DNA of 21,486 nt from positions 1 to 21,486 of the IMG/VR virus record IMGVR_UViG_3300020202_000223. One strand, 5' to 3'. Below are positions 3,221 through 16,435 of this stretch, one piece after another (position 1 is the stretch's first letter; each line of letters begins with the position of its first letter). The notes beneath the pieces are model-generated. The model was not told the origin of the DNA. It ran no database searches and was given only the letters and a program-made list of their open reading frames with translations. The stretch is from a virus. Both the position numbers and the translations under genes were made by a program.

Positions 3221-3666
3221 GTTCGGCTGCCCTCCAAGGCTGATGTTCGGCTGGTCAGCAATGTAGGCATGGATGTTCGGCTGGGGAGGTATATGGACGG
3301 CGCCATACCGGGAGCCCGCTACATGGCGAGCCACCGGCCTGCGGCCTGCCGCGTTTCGCCAGGCCGACCGCCAAGGCCCGTTCGGCCAGGCCAATTGGCA
3401 AGGCCCCAAGCGGGCGCCGGGCACATGCCTTGGCCCGGGCATGCCGCATGCCCGCTGCCGCTTCGCCAACGCCAGCCTCGCCAGGCCAAATGCGCCGCGC
3501 GCCACGTCGCCGCGGGCACGGTCCATGACGCCTGCCAAGCCGCGTGCCCGCCACGTTGACGTGCCGAGCAAGCCTCGCCAGGCCGAATGCCTCCTTGACG
3601 CCGGGTAGACGCGCCAGCTATTCGCGTGCGGGTGCGCCTCCAGGTATGCGCCCCACGAAAAGATCA

Positions 3667-7856: not shown

Positions 7857-9584
7857 TTATGCGGCCTTCTTGAAGACCGAGTAGTCGAAGTCGGTGACGA
7901 TGCCCTCGGCGAAGCCAGGGGTCGTCTCGATGATCTGCCGGCGCTCGCGGGCGTGGTCCTTCAGGTGGTGGTTGAGCGGGTCGGTGAAGTCGACGATGAA
8001 CGCGACGTTCGGGCCGGCCTTCTTCGCGCGCAGCCCGCGGCCGATCCGCTGGCGGCTCGCCACCTCCGCCTTGCCGGCCGACGCGATGATGACCATCCCG
8101 ATCGCGGGCACGTCGACGCCCACGTCGAGAATCGTCGAGCCGATCAGCACGTCGATGCGCCGCTCCTTCAGGGCATTGATCGCGGCCGCGCGCTCGGCCT
8201 GGTTGTGCTCGCCGAAGATGTAGGCCGACTTGATGCCCGCGTTCGCGAACATCGTGTTGAGCAGGGTGCCGTGAAGCTTCTGCTGCACGAGCACCATGAC
8301 GCTCAGACCGTGCTCGACCGCGCGCTTCGCTTCGGTGACGACCGCCTCGTTGCGCAAGCGGTTCTTGGTCACCCCGATCTCGTAGGCATCGGGCCAGGGC
8401 GTCGAACGGTAGAGCTTCACCGGGAACTCACGCTCGACCTTGCCGGCCGGCGTCTTCACCTTCCGCACCTCGCGGAACTCCTGGTAGGTGGGGATCTCGA
8501 TGAACTTGAAGTAGGGCCGCGCAAGGATGCCGGCTTCGATGAGCTGCTTCTCGGTGACCGTGATCGCCACGGGACCGCTTACCGCCTCGAGGCGCAGATT
8601 CGCCTCTTGGCTGTCCTTCATGTTCGGGGTGGCGGTGAGCGAGAGCCGGTAGTGGGCGCGCGTGCAGGCGCTCGCCACCTCGAAGAAGCTGTTCCCCGAC
8701 GCTTCGTGCGCTTCCTCGAGGATCAGAAGCTCGAACTTGGCGAGCAGATCGAGCCACCAGCCGCGCTTGGCGTTGTGCTTGTTGCATCGCTCGAGCACGA
8801 GCTTGGCGAGCTCCTTGGGGTCCTTGCGCAGCTCGGCCAGGCGCCGGAGGAGGGCGGTGCATTGCGCGTCCACCTCGCCCGAGTCGACACCCTCGGCCTC
8901 GAGGCGGGTGCGCAGCTCATCGGCTTCCCGCAGCTCGGCCGCCTCGCGGTTCTTCTCGAACCGCTCATACTCGAGCACCGGGTCCTGCAGCTCGATCGCC
9001 TGGGCAAGCGTCTGGACCATGCCGACGTTCATGCCGGCCAGGTGCGGCTTGATGATTCCGTCGCCGATCACACCGACGCGCTCGCCCATCGCCACGAACG
9101 AGTCCTTCATCTGGTGCATGAGGATGCCGCGGGTGGTCAGGAAGAGGGTGGGCCGGCCGATGCGACGGTAGCAGATCCGGGCGATCCGGGACTTTCCGCC
9201 GCCGGTCGCCACCTTGGCGACGATCTGCTGGTGGGTGACGAGCTTGTCCGCGGTGTGGAACTGATAGGCGTATTCGGGCGTCTCGCCGAAGCTGTCGACC
9301 TTGGGGCGCGCGGGGCCAAGCGGGGGCGGGGCCGGGACGCGGTTGGCGAGCACCCGGTAGCCGTTCTGTGTGAGGACCTTGATGACCCGGTAGTAGAAGC
9401 CGGCGGGGAAGGTATCCTTGGTGAAGTCGTAGAACGACATGCGGCCGTCCCACTTCCCGCCGGCGAACTGCGCCCCTTCCACCAGGTAGGAGAGCTCCTT
9501 GTGGATGAGCAGCTTGGCCGCGCGGTCGCCGCTCACCACCTTGGCGAGCACGGGACCGGCGACGATGCGAACGGGTTCTTTCAT
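7857..9584 (-). CDS. SF2 DEAH-type helicase, UvsW-like
   Basis: A 575-aa ATP-dependent DNA/RNA helicase of superfamily 2. Visible motifs: Walker A ATGGGKS (126-132); motif II LEEAH (289-293), where the usual Asp of DEAH is Glu; motif III SLTATP (315-320); motif VI QRIGRGLR (512-519). Residues 1-100 form an N-terminal domain before the Q-like region (YQFHTADKLVTHQQ). A charged helical insertion (about 203-275) sits between motifs I and II. The family as known in T4 (UvsW) unwinds branched DNA and remodels forks during recombination-dependent replication; a similar role here is inference. The start ATG has only a weak, distant AAGG. It is the first leftward gene, divergent from the ParB-domain gene with an operator between them. 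The phage replication genes are otherwise absent from this window. Confidence 0.9.
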   Translation of the reverse strand: MKEPVRIVAGPVLAKVVSGDRAAKLLIHKELSYLVEGAQFAGGKWDGRMSFYDFTKDTFPAGFYYRVIKVLTQNGYRVLANRVPAPPPLGPARPKVDSFGETPEYAYQFHTADKLVTHQQIVAKVATGGGKSRIARICYRRIGRPTLFLTTRGILMHQMKDSFVAMGERVGVIGDGIIKPHLAGMNVGMVQTLAQAIELQDPVLEYERFEKNREAAELREADELRTRLEAEGVDSGEVDAQCTALLRRLAELRKDPKELAKLVLERCNKHNAKRGWWLDLLAKFELLILEEAHEASGNSFFEVASACTRAHYRLSLTATPNMKDSQEANLRLEAVSGPVAITVTEKQLIEAGILARPYFKFIEIPTYQEFREVRKVKTPAGKVEREFPVKLYRSTPWPDAYEIGVTKNRLRNEAVVTEAKRAVEHGLSVMVLVQQKLHGTLLNTMFANAGIKSAYIFGEHNQAERAAAINALKERRIDVLIGSTILDVGVDVPAIGMVIIASAGKAEVASRQRIGRGLRAKKAGPNVAFIVDFTDPLNHHLKDHARERRQIIETTPGFAEGIVTDFDYSVFKKAA

Positions 9585-9660: not shown

Positions 9661-10308
9661 ATGCACTACGTCGAGCAGCGCGTGGCACCGGAGCACCTGC
9701 AGCCGAACCCCTGGAACACCAACGTCGTCTCCCCGGAGAACGAACAGCGAATCGAGAACGGCATCAAGGAATTGGGCTTCGTGCGCCCGATCCTGGCGCG
9801 CGAGCTCGAGGACGGGAGCCTGCAGATCATCGGCGGCGAGCACCGCTGGCAGATCGCGCAGCGCCTCGGCTATGGGGAGGTGCCGGTCTGGAATTTCGGG
9901 CGCATCGACGAGAAGACGGCCAAGAAGATCGGCCTCATCGACAACGCCCGCTACGGTCAAGACGACGCTCTTCAGCTTGCGGATCTCCTGAAAGGGATCG
10001 GCTCGCGCGACGAGATTGCGAACATCCTGCCCTACAACGACGCCGATCTCACTGCGCTGCTCGATGCGTCGAGTATAGCGGGCGCTGATCTGGACCTTCC
10101 CGGGACGGGCGCAGAAGCAGCAATCCCCGAGCGCCCCGCGCCGACGCATCAGATCATGCGCTTCAAGGTCCCTGTCGAGGACGCCGCCTGGGCCTCCGCG
10201 CTGCTCGAGAAGGTCATGCGCGAGCAGAACTTCACCTCCGACGATTCGATGACGAACGCCGGGCATGCACTCATCCACCTGCTGAACAAGGAGAGAACGG
10301 CGTCGTGA
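9661..10308 (+). CDS. ParB/Srx-fold nuclease-like protein
   Basis: A 215-aa protein. Residues 1-80 form a ParB N-terminal (Srx-fold) domain: strand VAPEHLQPNPWN, helix ENEQRIENGIKELGF, VRPILAR, and the signature IIGGEHRWQIAQRLG (56-70) with E60-H61-R62. The fold is known as a CTP-binding clamp in chromosomal ParB and as a nuclease or phosphotransferase-like domain in phage proteins. There is no ParB HTH of usual type, so it is probably not a partition protein. The C-terminal half is helical and unrecognised. AAGG six to nine bases upstream serves as ribosome binding site. It is the first gene of the rightward operon, followed by a Cys-rich protein and a second ParB-fold protein. Confidence 0.85.
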   Translation: MHYVEQRVAPEHLQPNPWNTNVVSPENEQRIENGIKELGFVRPILARELEDGSLQIIGGEHRWQIAQRLGYGEVPVWNFGRIDEKTAKKIGLIDNARYGQDDALQLADLLKGIGSRDEIANILPYNDADLTALLDASSIAGADLDLPGTGAEAAIPERPAPTHQIMRFKVPVEDAAWASALLEKVMREQNFTSDDSMTNAGHALIHLLNKERTAS

Positions 10309-10496
10309 GCAAGTATTCGATCTGCCTGGACTGCTACTACAACCACCGCGAGCCGGCGATCTGTGAAGGGTGCGCCAACGGCAGCGAGTTCGAGCCGAAC
10401 GTGGGCACCGCGGCCGAGGCGGTCGCCGGCGGCGGCAGCAAGAAGATCATCCCGCTGAAGCAAATCAAGGTCATGAAGAAGCGAGACACCCTATGA
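10305..10496 (+). CDS. Small Cys-rich, zinc-ribbon-like protein
   Basis: A 63-aa protein with CLDC at residues 7-10 and CEGC at 20-23, spaced like a treble-clef or zinc-ribbon knuckle. A Gly-rich linker and a basic end (KKIIPLKQIKVMKKRD) follow. GTG start overlaps the ParB-domain stop (GTGA), and its own stop overlaps the next ATG (ATGA). It is probably an accessory nucleic-acid or protein-binding subunit for the two ParB-fold neighbours; this is inference. Confidence 0.7.
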   Translation: MSKYSICLDCYYNHREPAICEGCANGSEFEPNVGTAAEAVAGGGSKKIIPLKQIKVMKKRDTL

Positions 10497-11143
10497 ACAT
10501 CCAGAAGGTCGCCATCGACAAGGTCAAACCCTACGACCTGAACTCGAAGAAGCACCCCAAGGACCAGGTCGCCGGGATCGCCGAGTCGATCAAGAAGTTC
10601 GGCTGGGACCAGCCGATCGTGGTCGATCGGGACTTCGTCATCATCAAGGGCCACGGCCGGCGCCTGGCCGCCATCGAGCTCGGCATGAAGGAAGTGCCGG
10701 TCCTGGTGCGCGACGACCTCACGCCCGAGGCGGTGAAGGCGGCGCGGCTCGCCGACAACCGCACGGCGCTCTCCGACATCGACACCGAGATGCTGCGGCT
10801 CGAGATGGCCGACATCAACAAGGATCTCCTGAAGGGGATCTACACCGACAAGGAGCTCGACTACGCGGTGGCGGACCTCGGCGCCATGTCGCAGGGCGCC
10901 TTCATCGACGACGTGGACGCCGCGGTGGAGAAGCAGGACCAGGAAACGAAGGAGCGCGTCGAGAAGCTGCAGGTGGCGCGCGTCCCGCTCGTCAAGGTCC
11001 TCGGGTTCAAGGACGTGCAGGGCGCGGACGAGATCTACTACTCGCGCTTCATCGCGCGGGCGGAAGAAAAGACCGGGCTCAAGGGCGAGCAGGCCGTCAC
11101 GGCGTTCGTGAAGGAGCTGGTCGGGCCGGTCAGTCAGGGGTGA
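10493..11143 (+). CDS. Second ParB/Srx-fold protein
   Basis: A 216-aa protein starting at the ATG that overlaps the preceding stop (the frame is open further upstream). Residues 1-75 are a ParB-like domain with IIKGHGRRLAAIELGMKEVPV (50-70), where KGHGRRLAA is the equivalent of GEHRW in the gene at 9661, followed by RLADNR (85-90), a pattern common in phage ParB-like proteins encoded next to DNA methylases. No methylase gene is present here. The C-terminal part (110-216) is helical and charged. Two divergent ParB-fold proteins in tandem suggest a heteromeric complex or separate roles in a DNA-modification or DNA-handling pathway. Confidence 0.85.
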   Translation: MNIQKVAIDKVKPYDLNSKKHPKDQVAGIAESIKKFGWDQPIVVDRDFVIIKGHGRRLAAIELGMKEVPVLVRDDLTPEAVKAARLADNRTALSDIDTEMLRLEMADINKDLLKGIYTDKELDYAVADLGAMSQGAFIDDVDAAVEKQDQETKERVEKLQVARVPLVKVLGFKDVQGADEIYYSRFIARAEEKTGLKGEQAVTAFVKELVGPVSQG

Positions 11144-11146
11144 CGT

Positions 11147-11593
11147 ATGGCTCTCAACTTCCGACTGCAGAAGGTCGATGCAGACGATCCGGCCGTGTGG
11201 GCGCGCATCGTCGCAATGGACGCGAAGTGCTTCGAGAAAGGCTTCGCACCGGCGCTCTCTAGCAACGACGGCGCCTGGTGGATCGCGACGGTCGACGGCA
11301 TGGACGCCGGCTACTGCGGGATCAAGGAACACGAGCCAGGCGTTGCCTACCTCTGCCGCGCGGGCGTCATCCCGCGGTTCCGCGGGGGCGGGCTGCAGAA
11401 GCTCATGATCCGCCGCCGGCTCGCGTGGGCGCGCAAGGAGGGCTTCAAGAGCGTCGTTTCTGACACGTGCGACTCGCCCGCGTCCGCCAACTCCCTTATT
11501 GCCTGTGGCTTTCGCATGTTCTCGCCGGCGAAGCCCTGGTCGTTTGAATACGCCTGCTATTGGCGACTTCTCCTCCTTCCAAAGACCAAATGA
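11147..11593 (+). CDS. GNAT-family N-acyltransferase
   Basis: A 148-aa protein with GNAT pattern: strand WWIATVDGMDAGYCGIK (44-60), strand VAYLCRAGVIP (66-76), then acyl-CoA pyrophosphate loop RFRGGGLQKLMIRR (77-90, matching R/Q-x-x-G-x-G/A), helix WARKEG, strand SVVSDT and SPASANSLIACGFRMF (110-125). GNAT enzymes move an acyl group from CoA to an amine. The substrate here is unknown. The context (ParB-fold, ABC ATPase and a second GNAT-like protein) suggests nucleic acid or protein modification rather than metabolism. It begins 3 bases after the previous stop, and its own stop overlaps the next start (ATGA). Confidence 0.85.
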   Translation: MALNFRLQKVDADDPAVWARIVAMDAKCFEKGFAPALSSNDGAWWIATVDGMDAGYCGIKEHEPGVAYLCRAGVIPRFRGGGLQKLMIRRRLAWARKEGFKSVVSDTCDSPASANSLIACGFRMFSPAKPWSFEYACYWRLLLLPKTK

Positions 11594-12300
11594 GCGACCT
11601 CTACACGATCAACAAACGCTTCGAGACGCGCGTCTACCGCAGCCAGCGCGTGCTCGAGATCGCCGAAGCCTTCGGCCTGGGCCTGGACGACAAGGAGTTC
11701 GTCATCTTCGACAACCTCGAGCTCACGGTGCCGCAGGGCTCGATCGTCTACATCACCGGCCAGTCGGGCTCGGGCAAGTCGCTGCTCCTGAAGGAGCTCG
11801 AGAAGCAGATGAGCGAGCGCGGCAAGAAGGTCGTGAACCTAGACCGCGTCGCGCTCGACAACGAGAAGACCCTCATCGATCAGATCGGCACGTCGACGAA
11901 CGACGCGCTGCGCATCCTGTCGATCGCCGGCCTGAACGACGCCTACCTCTACATCCGCCGGCCGAACGAGCTCTCCGACGGCCAGCGTTACCGCTTCCGG
12001 CTCGCGAAGGCGATCGAGTCAGGTGCCGACGTGTGGGTGGCAGACGAATTCATGGCGGTGCTCGACCGCACCGCGGCCAAGGTCATTGCCTTCAGCGTCC
12101 AGAAGACCGCGCGCAAGGTGGGCGCGACCGTGATCGTGGCGACGACCCACACCGACATGGTGCCCGACCTGCAGCCCTCGCTCTACATCGAGAAACGCTA
12201 CCGCGAAAAGCTGCGCGTCGAGACCGCGGAGCAGATCAAGACCCGCCTGGGCGACCTCACGGCCGACCAGGTCTATCGACACCTCCTGGAGATCCTCTGA
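11590..12300 (+). CDS. Stand-alone ABC-type ATPase
   Basis: A 236-aa soluble ABC ATPase with no membrane partner nearby. Walker A GQSGSGKS (57-64), signature LSDGQ (128-132, usually LSGGQ), Walker B VWVADE (148-153) followed by FMAVLDRTAA, and H-loop THTD (186-189). The ATG at 11590 overlaps the GNAT stop. The LSDGQRYRFRLAKA and DEF..VLDR pattern resembles the ABC ATPases that in bacteria are fused to, or encoded beside, GNAT acyltransferases; that recollection is family knowledge, not a search result. It likely provides ATP-driven remodelling or gating for the flanking GNAT proteins. Confidence 0.88.
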   Translation: MSDLYTINKRFETRVYRSQRVLEIAEAFGLGLDDKEFVIFDNLELTVPQGSIVYITGQSGSGKSLLLKELEKQMSERGKKVVNLDRVALDNEKTLIDQIGTSTNDALRILSIAGLNDAYLYIRRPNELSDGQRYRFRLAKAIESGADVWVADEFMAVLDRTAAKVIAFSVQKTARKVGATVIVATTHTDMVPDLQPSLYIEKRYREKLRVETAEQIKTRLGDLTADQVYRHLLEIL

Positions 12301-12539
12301 TGCGCAACCGTTACGACGTTCCCAAGAAGCAGTGGAAAAAGTTCGGCCCGATCGGCCAGCGGGTTTTCAACGAGGTCTACAGCGCGATGGTCAACAACCA
12401 GCGCCTCTTCCTGCATCTCGACGCGACACCCACCAAGCGCGAGCACTGGCGCGTGACGTGCTGGAACGCAGCCTGGACGGCGGCCTTCGAAGCGAAGTCG
12501 GCCGGCGGCGCCCGCTACGAAGTCACCGCGCGAAGCTAA
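12300..12539 (+). CDS. Hypothetical small basic protein
   Basis: A 79-aa protein, unrecognised: basic N-terminus (RNRYDVPKKQWKKFG), an aromatic/His-rich middle and several tryptophans. Its ATG overlaps the ABC ATPase stop by one base (TGATG). The intact frame and the coupling support it. It probably belongs functionally with the GNAT/ABC cassette, as it lies between the ATPase and the second GNAT-like gene. Confidence 0.65.
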   Translation: MRNRYDVPKKQWKKFGPIGQRVFNEVYSAMVNNQRLFLHLDATPTKREHWRVTCWNAAWTAAFEAKSAGGARYEVTARS

Positions 12540-12540
12540 C

Positions 12541-12903
12541 GTGAGCTGGCTGCCCGCCAACATTCTCCTGGTCGCCGTCGGCGTGCTGCTCGGGGCGCTG
12601 CTCGCCTATAAGCCTGGCGCCGCAGGCAGCACACAGCCTGCGGACGAGGTGCGCACGGAAGGCGGACTGCTGCCCGGCGGCGTCCGCAAGATCGACTTCA
12701 CCATCGAGGTGCGTGAAGACGCCCCGGACGCCTGCATGGCGTGGCCGGGCATGAAAGAGCGATTGAAACCCGGGCACTTCTACCTCGGCTGCGCACGGTG
12801 GACACCCGATTTCCAGGCGTGCCACGTCATCTTTGCACCCGACGTAGATAACGCGACGGTGCGGCACGAGCTCGCGCATTGCCTGAAAGGACACTGGCAT
12901 TGA
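12541..12903 (+). CDS. Membrane-anchored HExxH putative metalloprotein
   Basis: A 120-aa protein. Residues 5-23 form one hydrophobic segment (uncleaved anchor or signal), followed by a periplasm-type domain with cysteines C65, C84, C94 and C114. The C-terminus ends in HELAHCLKGHWH (109-120): an HExxH zinc motif with further histidines five and seven residues after the second. The GTG start is two bases after the previous stop. A minimal zinc peptidase or a metal-binding virion/lysis accessory could fit. It is short for a full protease, so activity is uncertain. Its stop overlaps the next start (TTGA). Confidence 0.7.
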   Translation: MSWLPANILLVAVGVLLGALLAYKPGAAGSTQPADEVRTEGGLLPGGVRKIDFTIEVREDAPDACMAWPGMKERLKPGHFYLGCARWTPDFQACHVIFAPDVDNATVRHELAHCLKGHWH

Positions 12904-13844
12904 AGCTCGATTCCGACACGATCGTTCGCCTGGACGCCGGCGCCGGCCGGCGCCCGCTATCGCTCCTGAAGGACATCTTCGTCGAGCGCGGCACGCTCGA
13001 GGACTGGAAGCAGCTCCACGAGCTCCACTACAAGAGCTCGAACCTCGGCATCGGGCCGCGCTACATGCGCTGCGCGCTGAAAGACGACTCCGAGCACGGC
13101 CAGACGATCGGCGTCATGGTCTTCACGGTGCCCAAGCCGCTCGACAGCGGCCGGAACATCGTCTTCCCGCACCTGAAGCCGAACCAGAACGGCAAGGACA
13201 ACACCCTCATCAACAAGATGCGCATGATGTGGCTGAACAAGAACCTGATCCTCTCGAGCCGCACGGTGCTCGACACCATGTATCGCGGCGCCGGCATCGC
13301 CTACCGCTTCAAGGGCATCGGCTACCGGATGATGGGCTACCGCTACGTCGAGAGCCGCTCGAGCATGAGCCGCTACAACCCGTTCTCGATCAAGGCTGGG
13401 ATGAAGTTCGTGAAGCCGAAGCACGCGGCCGCGCTCGAGTCGGGTCTGCAGTTCTTCCGCCGGCACTTCGTCAGCCCTGCCTACGACTACGTGGCGATCC
13501 TCGCCGAGCTGAAGGCGATGCCCGAGGGCGTCCGGCAGCGCGTTCTGGCGGAGCTGCGCGCGTTCTACTACGACCACTCGAGCATGGAAAAGTCGGGCGA
13601 CAACCGCCTGAACGGGACGAGCCGCGTCGAGCAGATGGAGATCGGCTACCTGCTCAAGCAGACGCAGCAGCTCGTGTTCGGGCAGACGGTCTACGCCGTG
13701 TGGGAGAACCCGGACTGGGACCCGAAGACGCAAAAGATGCGGCCGCTGCCGCGGCGCATCCCGCTGCTCGCATTCGACAACCAGGGCGTCCATGAGCCGC
13801 TGCGCCTGGATCTGCTGCCCAAGGAGTATCAGCAATGCACCTGA
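12900..13844 (+). CDS. GNAT-like acyltransferase, larger form
   Basis: A 314-aa protein. I start it at TTG 12900, which overlaps the previous stop and has AAAGGA upstream; a TTG at 12879 is possible (321 aa). GNAT features: LHYKSSNLG (43-50), strand GVMVFTVP (71-78), ILSSRTVLDTMYRGAGIAYRF (117-137) with the acyl-CoA loop YRGAGIA, and YVESRSSMSRYNPFSIKAGMKFV (149-171). The pattern R-x-V-x4-YRGxGIAxR...MxRxNPFxxKAGM resembles acyltransferases paired with ABC ATPases in bacteria and is distantly Mom-like. The C-terminal 140 residues are unrecognised. With the GNAT and ABC ATPase upstream, a role in nucleic-acid modification is inferred. The end overlaps the next gene by 10 bases. Confidence 0.7.
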   Translation: MKLDSDTIVRLDAGAGRRPLSLLKDIFVERGTLEDWKQLHELHYKSSNLGIGPRYMRCALKDDSEHGQTIGVMVFTVPKPLDSGRNIVFPHLKPNQNGKDNTLINKMRMMWLNKNLILSSRTVLDTMYRGAGIAYRFKGIGYRMMGYRYVESRSSMSRYNPFSIKAGMKFVKPKHAAALESGLQFFRRHFVSPAYDYVAILAELKAMPEGVRQRVLAELRAFYYDHSSMEKSGDNRLNGTSRVEQMEIGYLLKQTQQLVFGQTVYAVWENPDWDPKTQKMRPLPRRIPLLAFDNQGVHEPLRLDLLPKEYQQCT

Positions 13845-14203
13845 CCCAAAAGCAACTCACGATCATGACCGTGGTGGTCGCCGGCGACGGAAAGGATGCC
13901 GCGGGCAACCTCATCCCGGTCGACATGGACCAGCTCCTCGAGCGCATCGACTACAAGACGACGAAGGAGAGCATGCAGTTCTCCATCCGCGCGCTCATCA
14001 AGAACGGGTTTATCTACAAGGGCGGCTTTCAAACGCGGCGCGGACGCACGCGGGTTGTCTTCTTCCCGACCGAGCTCGGCAAGCAGATGACGAAGCTTGG
14101 GGCTTCGACAAGCTACCTCGAGCCTGCAAAAGACGATGTCGAGGAGCTTCTGGAACCGAGCACACCCGCGGCCGAGGGCTTCGTTGTGGAGTCGAATACC
14201 TGA
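13835..14203 (+). CDS. Winged-helix DNA-binding protein
   Basis: A 122-aa protein with a winged-helix outline: helix 1 (LTQKQLTIMTVVVAG, 3-17), helix 2 (DMDQLLERIDY, 30-40), recognition helix (TKESMQFSIRALIKNGFI, 43-60), then a wing of two basic strands (YKGGFQTRRGRTRVVFFPTELG, 61-82). The C-terminus is acidic and flexible. AAGGAG at ideal spacing supports the ATG. It lies at the junction between the modification cassette and the head module, just upstream of an operator copy at 14342-14353. It is a candidate regulator of late transcription; alternatively a DNA-binding packaging accessory. Confidence 0.6.
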   Translation: MHLTQKQLTIMTVVVAGDGKDAAGNLIPVDMDQLLERIDYKTTKESMQFSIRALIKNGFIYKGGFQTRRGRTRVVFFPTELGKQMTKLGASTSYLEPAKDDVEELLEPSTPAAEGFVVESNT

Positions 14204-14212
14204 GGATTTTGG

Positions 14213-14317
14213 TCAACTTGGCAAAAGTGCCGTTTCCCTCTTTATATAACCCTTTTCAATAACTACTGATTTACAAAAGCCAAAGAACTAAGGGAAACGG
14301 GTGTTTTGCCAAGTTGA
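14213..14317. repeat. Long imperfect inverted repeat around AT-rich DNA
   Basis: Arms of 27 bp (14213-14239 and 14291-14317) match at 24 positions; the three mismatches are together in the middle. Arms begin TCAACTTGGCAAAA and end CCGTTTCCCT. The 51-base centre is only about 27% G+C and contains TTATATAA, in sharp contrast to the GC-rich surroundings. It lies between the early operon and the small terminase gene, where packaging (cos/pac) sites, origins or bidirectional terminators often occur. Confidence 0.75.
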
Positions 14318-14341
14318 GCGATTTAGTCGGGTATGGCATAG

Positions 14342-14353
14342 ATCACCGCTGAT
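14342..14353. promoter_or_regulatory. Operator-like palindrome ATCACCGCTGAT
   Basis: ATCA-CCGC-TGAT, whose reverse complement contains the core TCAGCGGTGA seen elsewhere. It lies just after the long inverted repeat and 27 bases before the leader ORF at 14380. A weak rightward promoter (TTGAGC 14314-14319, ATAGAT 14338-14343, 18-bp spacing) would overlap it. Confidence 0.55.
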
Positions 14354-14379
14354 TGACTTTTGAGATAGGAAAGCGCAAC

Positions 14380-14457
14380 ATGAAGGCTCGTCAGTTCTCC
14401 TCCTCCGAATGGGGTCTTAATCTCCCGGACCCCGCTTTTTTCCTGGTGCAGCCATGA
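14380..14457 (+). CDS. 25-aa leader peptide coupled to small terminase
   Basis: A 25-codon frame (MKARQFSSSEWGLNLPDPAF...). AGGAAAG lies seven bases before its ATG, whereas the small terminase start at 14454 has no ribosome binding site of its own. The stop overlaps that start in ATGA. A terminator-like hairpin (14411-14441) lies within the frame, an arrangement like transcription attenuation or translational coupling. The peptide itself matches no family I know. Confidence 0.5.
   Translation: MKARQFSSSEWGLNLPDPAFFLVQP
14411..14441 (+). terminator. Terminator-like hairpin inside the leader ORF
   Basis: GGGGTC (14411-14416), 11-base loop, GACCCC (14428-14433), then GCTTTTTT. The 6-bp stem with a T-run is a plausible intrinsic terminator or attenuator just before the small terminase gene. 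Confidence 0.6.
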
Positions 14458-15122
14458 CCGCGGTCGCGAAAGCGAGGCGGCTCACGGCGCTGCAGAAGAT
14501 CCAGGCGGCCGCCAAGTATTCGCTCGGCGGCATCACGGTCAAGCAGCTCGCCGCGGAATTCAAGGTCTCCGAGGACACGATGAGTCGCGCCCTGAAGAAG
14601 ATGGGCGTGGAGAAGGGCAGTCAGCAGTCGCTCGTCGAGGCGAAGGTCGCCGAGCGGCTCGCCAAGGAAGCCGAAGCCACGGCGGCCGACATCGCGCAGA
14701 AGGTCAAGGCCACCAACGACGAGACCTACCGAATGCTCTCGGCCTACCAGAAGCTCTCAGCCGAGTCGGTCGCGAAGGCTCGTTCGGGCTCTCACGCGAT
14801 CGGCACCACCATCAACGACGCAAAGGCCCTGGAGATCCACATCCGGGCGGTGCGACTCGCCCATGAGGGCCGACTGAAGGCGCTCGGGGTCAAGGACGAC
14901 GGCAACGGCGAGCGCGAGGAGCTGCCGACGCTCGGGATTCACGAGATGGACGCCGAGCAGATCCGTGCAGCGCGCGAGCAGCAGTCGAACGAAGACGGCG
15001 ACGCGGTCGGGAAGCTCGAGGGCACCCTCGAGCCGGCGGCCGCGCCTGCCGAGGACGAGAAGGTCTCCGAGGGCGACGACACCGGCGATGCCGAGCTCGG
15101 CACGGGGGCCAAGCCACAATGA
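14454..15122 (+). CDS. terS: Terminase small subunit
   Basis: A 222-aa protein that would recognise phage DNA and load the motor. Residues 9-48 contain a helix-turn-helix (LQKIQAAAKYSLGG, ITVKQLAAEFKVSEDTMSRALKKMG), typical of small terminases; a long helical region (55-150) suits oligomerisation; the C-terminal 60 residues are acidic and flexible and would contact the large subunit. It lies directly before the large terminase with an ATGA overlap, which fixes the role more firmly than sequence alone. The ATG lacks a ribosome binding site and overlaps a 25-codon leader ORF, so translation is probably coupled. The inverted repeat 14213-14317 just upstream could be its binding site. Confidence 0.82.
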   Translation: MTAVAKARRLTALQKIQAAAKYSLGGITVKQLAAEFKVSEDTMSRALKKMGVEKGSQQSLVEAKVAERLAKEAEATAADIAQKVKATNDETYRMLSAYQKLSAESVAKARSGSHAIGTTINDAKALEIHIRAVRLAHEGRLKALGVKDDGNGEREELPTLGIHEMDAEQIRAAREQQSNEDGDAVGKLEGTLEPAAAPAEDEKVSEGDDTGDAELGTGAKPQ

Positions 15123-16435
15123 TTCTGACGCCGGCGGCGGGTCCCATGATCTACACCTCCGCCGCCACCGCCACCCGCCCGGTCCTCTATCTGCACCCGA
15201 AGCAGATGGAGGTCCGTCGCGACCGCCACCGCTTCCGGTGCGTCGTCGCCGGCCGCCGCTGGGGCAAGACCCAGCTCGCCAAGATCGAGATCATCGGCGC
15301 CGCGACGGTGCCGAAGCAGCTCATCTGGTATGTCGCGCCGTCCTACCGGATGGCGAAGCAGATTATGTGGCCGGAGCTCCTTGATTCCATTCCGAAGAAA
15401 TGGATCAAGCGCATCAACGAGACGTTGATGATGATCGAGCTCAAGAACAAGACCAGGATCGAGCTCAAGGGCGCCGACAACCCCGACTCACTGCGCGGCG
15501 TCGGCATTCACTTCCTCGTCATGGACGAGGTGCAGGACATCGACCCCGAAGCTTGGACGAAGGTGCTGCGCCCGACACTGGCGAGCACGCGCGGCCGCGC
15601 GCTGTTCATCGGCACGCCCAAGTCCTACAACTTCCTCTACGAGCTCTACATGCTCGGCAAGCGGGGCGTCACCTACACGGACCCCCAGGGCGTCGTGCGC
15701 AACAACGTGTGGGCGTCCTGGCAGTTCCCGACGATCACCTCGCCGTTCATCAGCGAGGAGGAAATCGAGGCGGCCAAGGCCGACATGGACGAGAAGAGCT
15801 TCAACCAGGAATTCAACGCCTCCTTCGAGACGATGAGCGGCCGGGTCTACTACCCCTTCAACCGCCGCGTCCACGTCGGGCACTACCCGTTCAACCCGCG
15901 GCTGCCGATCTGGATCGGCCAGGACTTTAACCTCGACCCCATGTGCTCGGTCGTGCTCCAGCCCCAGGAAGACGGCAAGACGCTTTGGGCCGTCGACGAG
16001 ATCGTGCTCAAGGGCTCGAACACGGAGGAGGTCTGCGACGAGATCGAAAAGCGTTACTACCGCTGGATGAAGCAGGTCACGATCTTCCCCGACCCGGCCG
16101 GTCAATACCGCCAGCACGCCCGAGGCGAGTCGGACCTCGACATCTTCCGCCAGAAGGGCTTCAAGCGCCTGAAATACCGCCGGAAACACCCGCTCGTCGC
16201 CGACCGGGTGAACTCGGTGAACCGCATGCTGCGCGCGGCCGACGGCACCATCCGCCTCTACGTGAACGACAAGTGCGAGAACCTGGTGGAGTCGCTCGAG
16301 CAGACGATCTACAAGGCCGGCACGCGCGAGATCGACAAGGACGCGAACATCGAGCACATCACCGACGCGGTCGGCTACCCGATCGAGTATCAGTTCCCGG
16401 TGCGCAAGATTGTCGTGGTCGGAAGGTCTCTATAA
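15119..16435 (+). CDS. terL: Terminase large subunit
   Basis: A 438-aa ATPase-nuclease that pumps DNA into the prohead and cuts concatemers. Walker A-like AGRRWGKT (44-51), Walker B FLVMDE (132-137), coupling region LFIGTPKSYNF (162-172). The RNase H-like nuclease has D269 (WIGQDFNLDP), D325 (IFPDPAG) and D416 (HITDAVGYPIEY). Length and motif order fit a complete, active protein. The start is at the ATG overlapping the small terminase stop; a second ATG nine codons in is possible. Its stop codon lies in a CTATAAGG word, followed immediately by the -35 of the portal promoter. Confidence 0.95.
   Translation: MILTPAAGPMIYTSAATATRPVLYLHPKQMEVRRDRHRFRCVVAGRRWGKTQLAKIEIIGAATVPKQLIWYVAPSYRMAKQIMWPELLDSIPKKWIKRINETLMMIELKNKTRIELKGADNPDSLRGVGIHFLVMDEVQDIDPEAWTKVLRPTLASTRGRALFIGTPKSYNFLYELYMLGKRGVTYTDPQGVVRNNVWASWQFPTITSPFISEEEIEAAKADMDEKSFNQEFNASFETMSGRVYYPFNRRVHVGHYPFNPRLPIWIGQDFNLDPMCSVVLQPQEDGKTLWAVDEIVLKGSNTEEVCDEIEKRYYRWMKQVTIFPDPAGQYRQHARGESDLDIFRQKGFKRLKYRRKHPLVADRVNSVNRMLRAADGTIRLYVNDKCENLVESLEQTIYKAGTREIDKDANIEHITDAVGYPIEYQFPVRKIVVVGRSL

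Follow-up and report, generated by a model that had tools for sequence, protein, structure and literature searches.

The coupling of a GNAT acetyltransferase with an ABC ATPase has been predicted to make an uncharacterised acyl modification of a DNA base, for which Tenacibaculum phage pT24 is the named example (PMC7824862, section 3.4.7, citing Iyer et al., 2013). The virus record analysed here, 21,486 bases that are referred to in full as the window, carries an operon between a divergent helicase gene and the terminase genes, in which two ParB-type proteins, a stand-alone ABC ATPase and a 314-aa acyltransferase are encoded. Judged by homology, this cassette is a split, two-ParB variant of the predicted ParB/ABC/GNAT system, and on balance its core is read as a DNA-modification machine that would acylate a nucleobase for anti-restriction. 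Neither PADLOC nor Rfam put a name on the cassette.

Both halves of the pairing are homologous to a family in which the two domains are present in a single protein, as in Gordonia Jace gp86 and Leptospira LE3 gp17, each encoded directly after a ParB gene. In profile comparisons, the window ATPase matches the N-terminal half of these fusions (99.7%, E value 4e-27) and the 314-aa acyltransferase matches the C-terminal half (96%, E value 3e-9; 90% with a deep alignment). From these alignments, the 314-aa protein is considered to correspond, in expanded and stand-alone form, to the C-terminal half of a COG2401-like ABC-GNAT fusion, COG2401 being a family whose name describes an ABC-type ATPase with a fused acetyltransferase. 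A full-text literature search for COG2401 found no paper. Phage pT24 belongs to the same family as the fusions, since it is matched by the Jace fusion (32% identity, E value 4e-48), with the frame split between two annotated genes; this membership is based on the genome match and not on the cited protein QAX98348.1.

The association of the two genes is conserved. Searches for the 314-aa protein gave 30 phage records, 905 plasmid records and at least 311 confirmed IMG/VR loci (a single-sequence scan of IMG/VR gave only two relatives, an alignment query 311), and the phage records bearing the acyltransferase are the same as those with a full-length ATPase match (30/30). Conservation was counted in the 62 relatives with more than 5 kb of upstream sequence. 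The helicase, ParB1, ParB2, ABC and acyltransferase genes are present in all 62 and their order is never broken. The core (ParB, ParB, ABC ATPase, 314-aa acyltransferase) precedes a small gene, the small and large terminase genes (TerS and TerL) and the portal gene; TerL and portal are present in 50/50 of the relatives with enough downstream sequence (more than 6.5 kb for TerL), and the small gene, encoding 122 aa, is present in 58/62.

All eight open reading frames (ORFs) between 9661 and 13844 were confirmed, together with their features, the junctions being -4, -4, +3, -4, -1, +1 and -4 nt in order, and a ninth operon gene starts at 13835, overlapping the 314-aa gene by 10 nt. The GC content at third codon positions (GC3) is 0.79-0.96 for every operon frame, like that of the structural genes, and only 0.49 for a competing long ORF (11499-12539), therefore the operon frames look coding. 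Pfam supports both ParB N-terminal domains, with PF02195 above the cut-off for each of these ParB/Srx family proteins, as well as the 148-aa GNAT and the ABC ATPase, and there are matches across the operon to phrog_723, phrog_930, phrog_293, phrog_886 and phrog_900. The genes and their surroundings are in the following order:

7857-9584, minus strand: DEAD/DEAH-type helicase, divergent left boundary of the cassette (62/62 relatives; annotated as helicase in relatives).
9661-10308, plus strand: ParB1, ParB N-terminal domain (PF02195, E value 7e-11; phrog_723, E value 1e-58; 62/62 relatives).
10305-10496, plus strand: 63-aa Cys-rich protein, CxxC...CxxC, putative zinc knuckle, semi-conserved accessory (14/62 relatives by tblastn; slot family of 47 loci).
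10493-11143, plus strand: ParB2, second ParB/Srx-type protein (PF02195, E value 1e-7; phrog_930, E value 2e-74; 62/62 relatives).
11147-11593, plus strand: 148-aa GNAT acetyltransferase, variable cargo between ParB2 and ABC (PF00583, E value 8e-8; 0/62 relatives).
11590-12300, plus strand: stand-alone ABC ATPase (PF00005, E value 9e-14; 62/62 relatives).
12300-12539, plus strand: 79-aa ORF, or 80 aa if begun at the TTG at 12297, variable cargo located between the ABC and acyltransferase genes (GC3 0.86).
12541-12903, plus strand: 120-aa protein with an N-terminal hydrophobic segment and a HELAH motif, variable cargo (from its sequence).
12900-13844, plus strand: 314-aa acyltransferase, predicted GNAT fold (phrog_886, E value 8e-106; AlphaFold model).
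13835-14203, plus strand: 122-aa conserved protein, ninth operon gene (phrog_900, E value 2e-20; 58/62 relatives).
14204-14453, no strand: intergenic region that may be cos/pac or regulatory, with an inverted repeat (best arms 14213-14239 and 14291-14317).
14454-15122 and 15119-16435, plus strand: terminase small and large subunits (phrog_867; annotation of relatives; TerL in 50/50).

The preliminary description of this DNA, made from its letters alone, had proposed eight coupled genes with two ParB-fold proteins, a GNAT and a stand-alone ABC ATPase, all of which is confirmed by the ORFs, junctions, GC3 and Pfam matches, and the neighbourhood survey that it suggested for the ATPase and the 314-aa protein gave the association described above. 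Its treatment of all eight genes as one cassette holds for the operon, which is single, but not for the conserved machine. The 148-aa GNAT, the 79-aa ORF and the HExxH membrane protein are present in none of the 62 relatives; the phage and plasmid collections contain no match to the HExxH protein, and the phage collection contains none to the 79/80-aa ORF and a single partial one to the 148-aa GNAT. Because these genes are absent where the others are conserved, the machine is ParB-ParB-ABC-acyltransferase and the three are cargo, belonging to the operon only. The HExxH protein, which had been thought to make the combination unusual, is therefore excluded as a part of the machine and is locus-specific, though other HExxH proteins recur in the slots of relatives.

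There is no Pfam match to the 314-aa protein, and a search of solved structures with its sequence profile found nothing. An AlphaFold model built from 58 sequences has a predicted local distance difference test score (pLDDT) of 87.1, and when compared with solved structures its top rows are GNATs, with matches at Z of about 10-11 (best Z 10.9). The predicted structure thus places this protein in the GNAT superfamily, as the preliminary description had suspected; neither of the two outcomes checked here that it had named as contrary to its reading, a different fold or neighbourhoods lacking a conserved association, was obtained. TmcA/NAT10 and the AtaT toxin also appear in the comparison, ranked below generic GNATs, and the Mom structure of phage Mu (8bv8) ranks fourth (Z 10.4, 3.0 A over 139 residues). 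The coenzyme A (CoA)-binding loop R129-G130-A131-G132-I133-A134 is conserved, with R129 and G130 in 58/58 sequences, G132 in 57/58 and A/G134 in 58/58, which argues for an active enzyme; H43-Y44-K45, D35-W36, E151, S154, M156-S157 and N160-P161-F162 are likewise invariant or nearly so. Proteins of phrog_886 are named 'ABC transporter ATP-binding subunit' in RefSeq (NC_018843, NC_042091 and others), but these proteins are without a P-loop and the name is wrong. It probably spread from COG2401, of which the 314-aa protein resembles just the second half; the wording of that family's name appears in the records of phages Cyrano and ST13-OXA48phi12.3.

The ABC ATPase has the motifs expected in its Walker A (GQSGSGKS), signature (LSDGQ), Walker B (VADE) and H-loop (TH) positions. 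These are invariant or nearly so across 41 homologues, and the AlphaFold model (pLDDT 85.7) has an ABC fold. By sequence, the closest solved relative comes from the activation complex of methyl-coenzyme M reductase, whose component A2 (8s7v) is the top match for both ATPase profiles.

At least 580 fusions were counted in IMG/VR, and 408 in genome contigs. Of 76 viral loci with the fusion, 70 have ParB immediately upstream, and in 42 of the genome loci kept ParB is at position -1 in the same orientation. Among 88 large ORFs downstream of the fusion (63 loci), 38 match TerL family phrog_2, and other TerL families and portals are matched too. In phages of Streptococcus, Oenococcus and Lactococcus, ParB, ABC and a small GNAT are encoded as three genes. 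These counts and neighbourhoods support the ParB/ABC/GNAT module as widespread, split or fused, and tending to sit just 5' of packaging genes. Beside the fusion of an Aminicenantes contig is an ORF (L118:3126-4445, minus strand) with a ParB-like N-terminus and an N6/N4 DNA methylase domain; no PF01555 methylase was found in the records of ten relatives.

In the window, the interval between the operon and TerS contains an inverted repeat. The repeat before TerS has 44-nt arms, 51 nt apart, both here and in the nearest relative (L008:9283-9421), and a further relative has 25-nt arms, 52 nt apart (L031:9608-9709); the arm letters differ among the three, while complementarity is kept. The linear record of Salmonella phage SSU5 starts and ends in the interval equivalent to 14204-14453, which makes this region a candidate cos; it may be a cos region or a regulatory element.

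Between the core genes, relatives carry recurrent accessory families, and as the slot ORFs were called mechanically, with some clusters being wrong-frame artefacts, the counts are approximate: 47 loci for the Cys-rich knuckle, 45 for thioredoxin and 14 for holin-like proteins. The thioredoxin gene is in the ABC-acyltransferase slot (for example, L025:3642-3968), where a glutaredoxin domain is annotated in a Cupriavidus locus (L010). HExxH proteins of at least two families are present in 34 loci (for example, L008:6546-7270, L056:5500-5910, L098:7367-7948 and L012:5094-5540), with phrog_1233, which has weak SprT-like/M78 similarity, in 30, including two copies in the nearest relative, and phrog_1365 in four. 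By sequence search, the window HExxH protein is unrelated to either. Tad2-like domain proteins (PF11195; E value 4e-22 for the one representative tested) are present in 10 loci and Acb2/Tad1 hairpin proteins (PF24729; E value 3e-12 for the one representative tested) in seven, for example L035:5503-5991, L004:7074-7364 and L048:3791-4066. Tad1, Tad2 and Acb2 are described in PMC12043709 as phage proteins that sequester immune signals. Because such genes lie between the core genes of relatives (17 loci), the slots look like an anti-defence island, and the recurrence makes the thioredoxins, HExxH proteins and small GNATs candidates for new anti-defence factors.

A His-Tyr dyad, H43-Y44, is present in 58/58 acyltransferases and in 150/151 fusions with a matched motif. 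His-Tyr is also invariant in eight divergent Mom proteins (H58-Y59, 8/8); profile alignments, not residue-by-residue structure, put the two dyads in equivalent positions behind the first GNAT helix region. PF25680 (Mom) matches Mu Mom itself and does not match the 314-aa protein. Membership of the Mom family is rejected for the 314-aa protein, there being no Pfam or profile match and only similarity of fold and dyad; the enzyme may work like Mom, but on present evidence it is not a member of that family. In Microbacterium phage Antuna (L220:1469-2621), a Mom-related acetyltransferase is directly after a ParB-like gene, with no ABC ATPase beside it.

If the core is a DNA-modification machine, the ParB-like proteins would bind or load onto phage DNA and bring the complex there, an ABC dimer would spend ATP to engage, switch or remodel the DNA-protein complex, and the GNAT-fold enzyme, working much as Mu Mom does, would use a CoA donor to place an acyl-type group on a nucleobase. 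Progeny genomes would be marked shortly before packaging, as the position before the terminase genes and beside the SSU5 cut interval suggests, and the mark would protect against restriction in the next host. This is given a slightly better than even chance. It is supported by the core order in 62/62 relatives and the 30/30 co-occurrence, by the GNAT fold with its CoA loop, by the homology to fusions that have ParB upstream and pT24 among their family, by the dyad in common with Mom and the rank of 8bv8, by the anti-defence genes in the slots, and by the methylase domain encoded beside the Aminicenantes fusion. Several results weigh against it. The ATPase is structurally nearest to transporter-type nucleotide-binding domains and not to DNA-repair ABC proteins; the fold match of the acyltransferase is general for GNATs, with Mom tied with others in Z; in profile comparisons, Mom gives no significant match to the 314-aa family (0.7%) and a weak one to the fusions (32%, E value 5e-4). 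GNATs also acylate proteins, tRNA and small molecules, and no biochemistry or other experimental test was found in the searchable literature, from which subscription papers are largely absent. A rather less probable form of DNA modification, to be held only tentatively, is a hypermodification distinct from that of Mom, in which two ParB proteins and the ABC ATPase would load the acyltransferase on replicating or pre-packaging DNA near cos to acylate a base, with accessory thioredoxins and zinc-metalloprotease-like proteins adding steps or counter-defence, as a widespread anti-defence island of SSU5-type phage-plasmids. An acyl-type group on a DNA base or a DNA-bound protein, perhaps as anti-restriction, was also what the preliminary description proposed; its DNA form, with the acyltransferase coupled to the ATPase and linked to ParB, stands as the best-supported reading, but not as something undescribed, since base acylation by a GNAT and an ABC ATPase had already been predicted (Iyer et al., 2013, as cited in PMC7824862).

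It is also conceivable, though unlikely, that the substrate of the acyltransferase is a DNA-bound protein (the terminase, a part of the capsid or scaffold, ParB, or a host protein active in defence or transcription), targeting and energy being supplied by ParB and ABC, in support of packaging or host takeover. The core adjoins TerS, TerL and portal in all tested relatives, the ORFs downstream of fusions include the 38/88 of one TerL family and members of several others, proteins or amines are the substrates of most GNATs in the fold list, and the phage GNAT Rac acetylates host RNA polymerase (PMC7824862). However, ParB, ABC and GNAT stay together next to terminases of unrelated families, and also in large T4-like phages (PX29), so that no single packaging partner is obvious. 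More doubtful still is a machine for DNA segregation, condensation or the initiation of packaging at cos/pac, in which ParB and ABC would do the work and the GNAT fold would be structural or regulatory, with no base modification. The ParB homology, the many plasmid-like relatives (905 plasmid records) and the nearness of the core to the SSU5 cut interval and to an inverted repeat of conserved geometry would suit such a role, but the same module is found outside phage-plasmids (P335-type phages, Streptococcus prophages, T4-like phages), RHph_X66 carries a separate ParA-like gene, and the CoA-loop residues are conserved. Plasmid partition as the only function is rejected, because the module is also in integrating temperate and T4-like phages. 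Action on RNA, for example the acetylation of tRNA or charged tRNA, occurs with some phage and toxin GNATs and is improbable here: TmcA/NAT10 and AtaT are among the fold matches, but below generic GNATs, and the linkage to ParB-type DNA-binding proteins and packaging genes is steady. Membrane transport, which is implied by the names 'ABC transporter' and 'ABC transporter ATP-binding subunit' given in databases and with which the structural neighbours of the ATPase agree, has hardly any likelihood. No core gene encodes a membrane domain, the supposed ATP-binding subunit has a predicted GNAT fold and no P-loop, and the ABC-GNAT fusion is soluble by its sequence and follows ParB. No permease is among the conserved core genes of the 62 relatives, and identity as an ABC transporter is therefore rejected.

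The phage or phage-plasmid of which the window is a fragment is of the SSU5/Nickievirus/RHEph10-like kind. The same block is found before TerS-TerL-portal-capsid in Pseudomonas phage hairong (Nickievirus), Salmonella SSU5, Rhizobium RHph_X66 and Stenotrophomonas BUCTxx99, and in plasmid records of Cupriavidus metallidurans, Acinetobacter, Aeromonas and Escherichia coli. The closest named relative is a C. metallidurans plasmid record, in which the acyltransferase is 67% identical, and from this match alone the host is probably a member of the Burkholderiales. Away from the operon, the window has a GC-rich region (3240-3600) that contains imperfect direct repeats of 23 nt, spaced by about 96 nt, and an exact repeat of 13 nt, and that might be an origin or iteron-like region. 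The cassette occurs in phage-plasmids of Klebsiella, E. coli, Salmonella and Acinetobacter, where the enzyme is misnamed as a transporter or unnamed. Should the DNA be marked as proposed, this would explain the passage of SSU5-type elements between restricting hosts and would add a DNA modification of uncharacterised chemistry, with the 2013 prediction being testable in a cultivated Salmonella or E. coli phage-plasmid.

Compared with known systems, the likeness to Mu Mom (PF25680; 8bv8) is in the GNAT fold, the His-Tyr dyad and being phage-encoded; in Mu, only com adjoins mom, without the ABC ATPase or ParB gene seen in the window. The soluble ABC ATPases component A2 and PhnK are alike in the ATPase, and A2 acts on a soluble enzyme, but their partners are different and the likeness is limited to the ATPase. 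In Lactococcus P335, Streptococcus and Oenococcus phages, ParB, ABC and GNAT genes are adjacent, and in P335 and MismyG they are before the terminase; with one ParB and a 130-aa fusion-type GNAT, this is a separate split form from that of the window. The closest system is the COG2401-like fusion with ParB (Jace gp86, pT24), which has the common ATPase family, a homologous GNAT and ParB directly 5', often near terminase. The window differs from it in having the ATPase and acyltransferase as separate genes, two ParB genes, variable cargo slots and an acyltransferase about twice as long, owing to an insert of helices behind strand 3 and a helical region at the C-terminus. As far as has been checked, what is new is this split, two-ParB variant in SSU5-type phage-plasmids, its invariance, its packaging-proximal position, the dyad shared with Mom and the anti-defence cargo.

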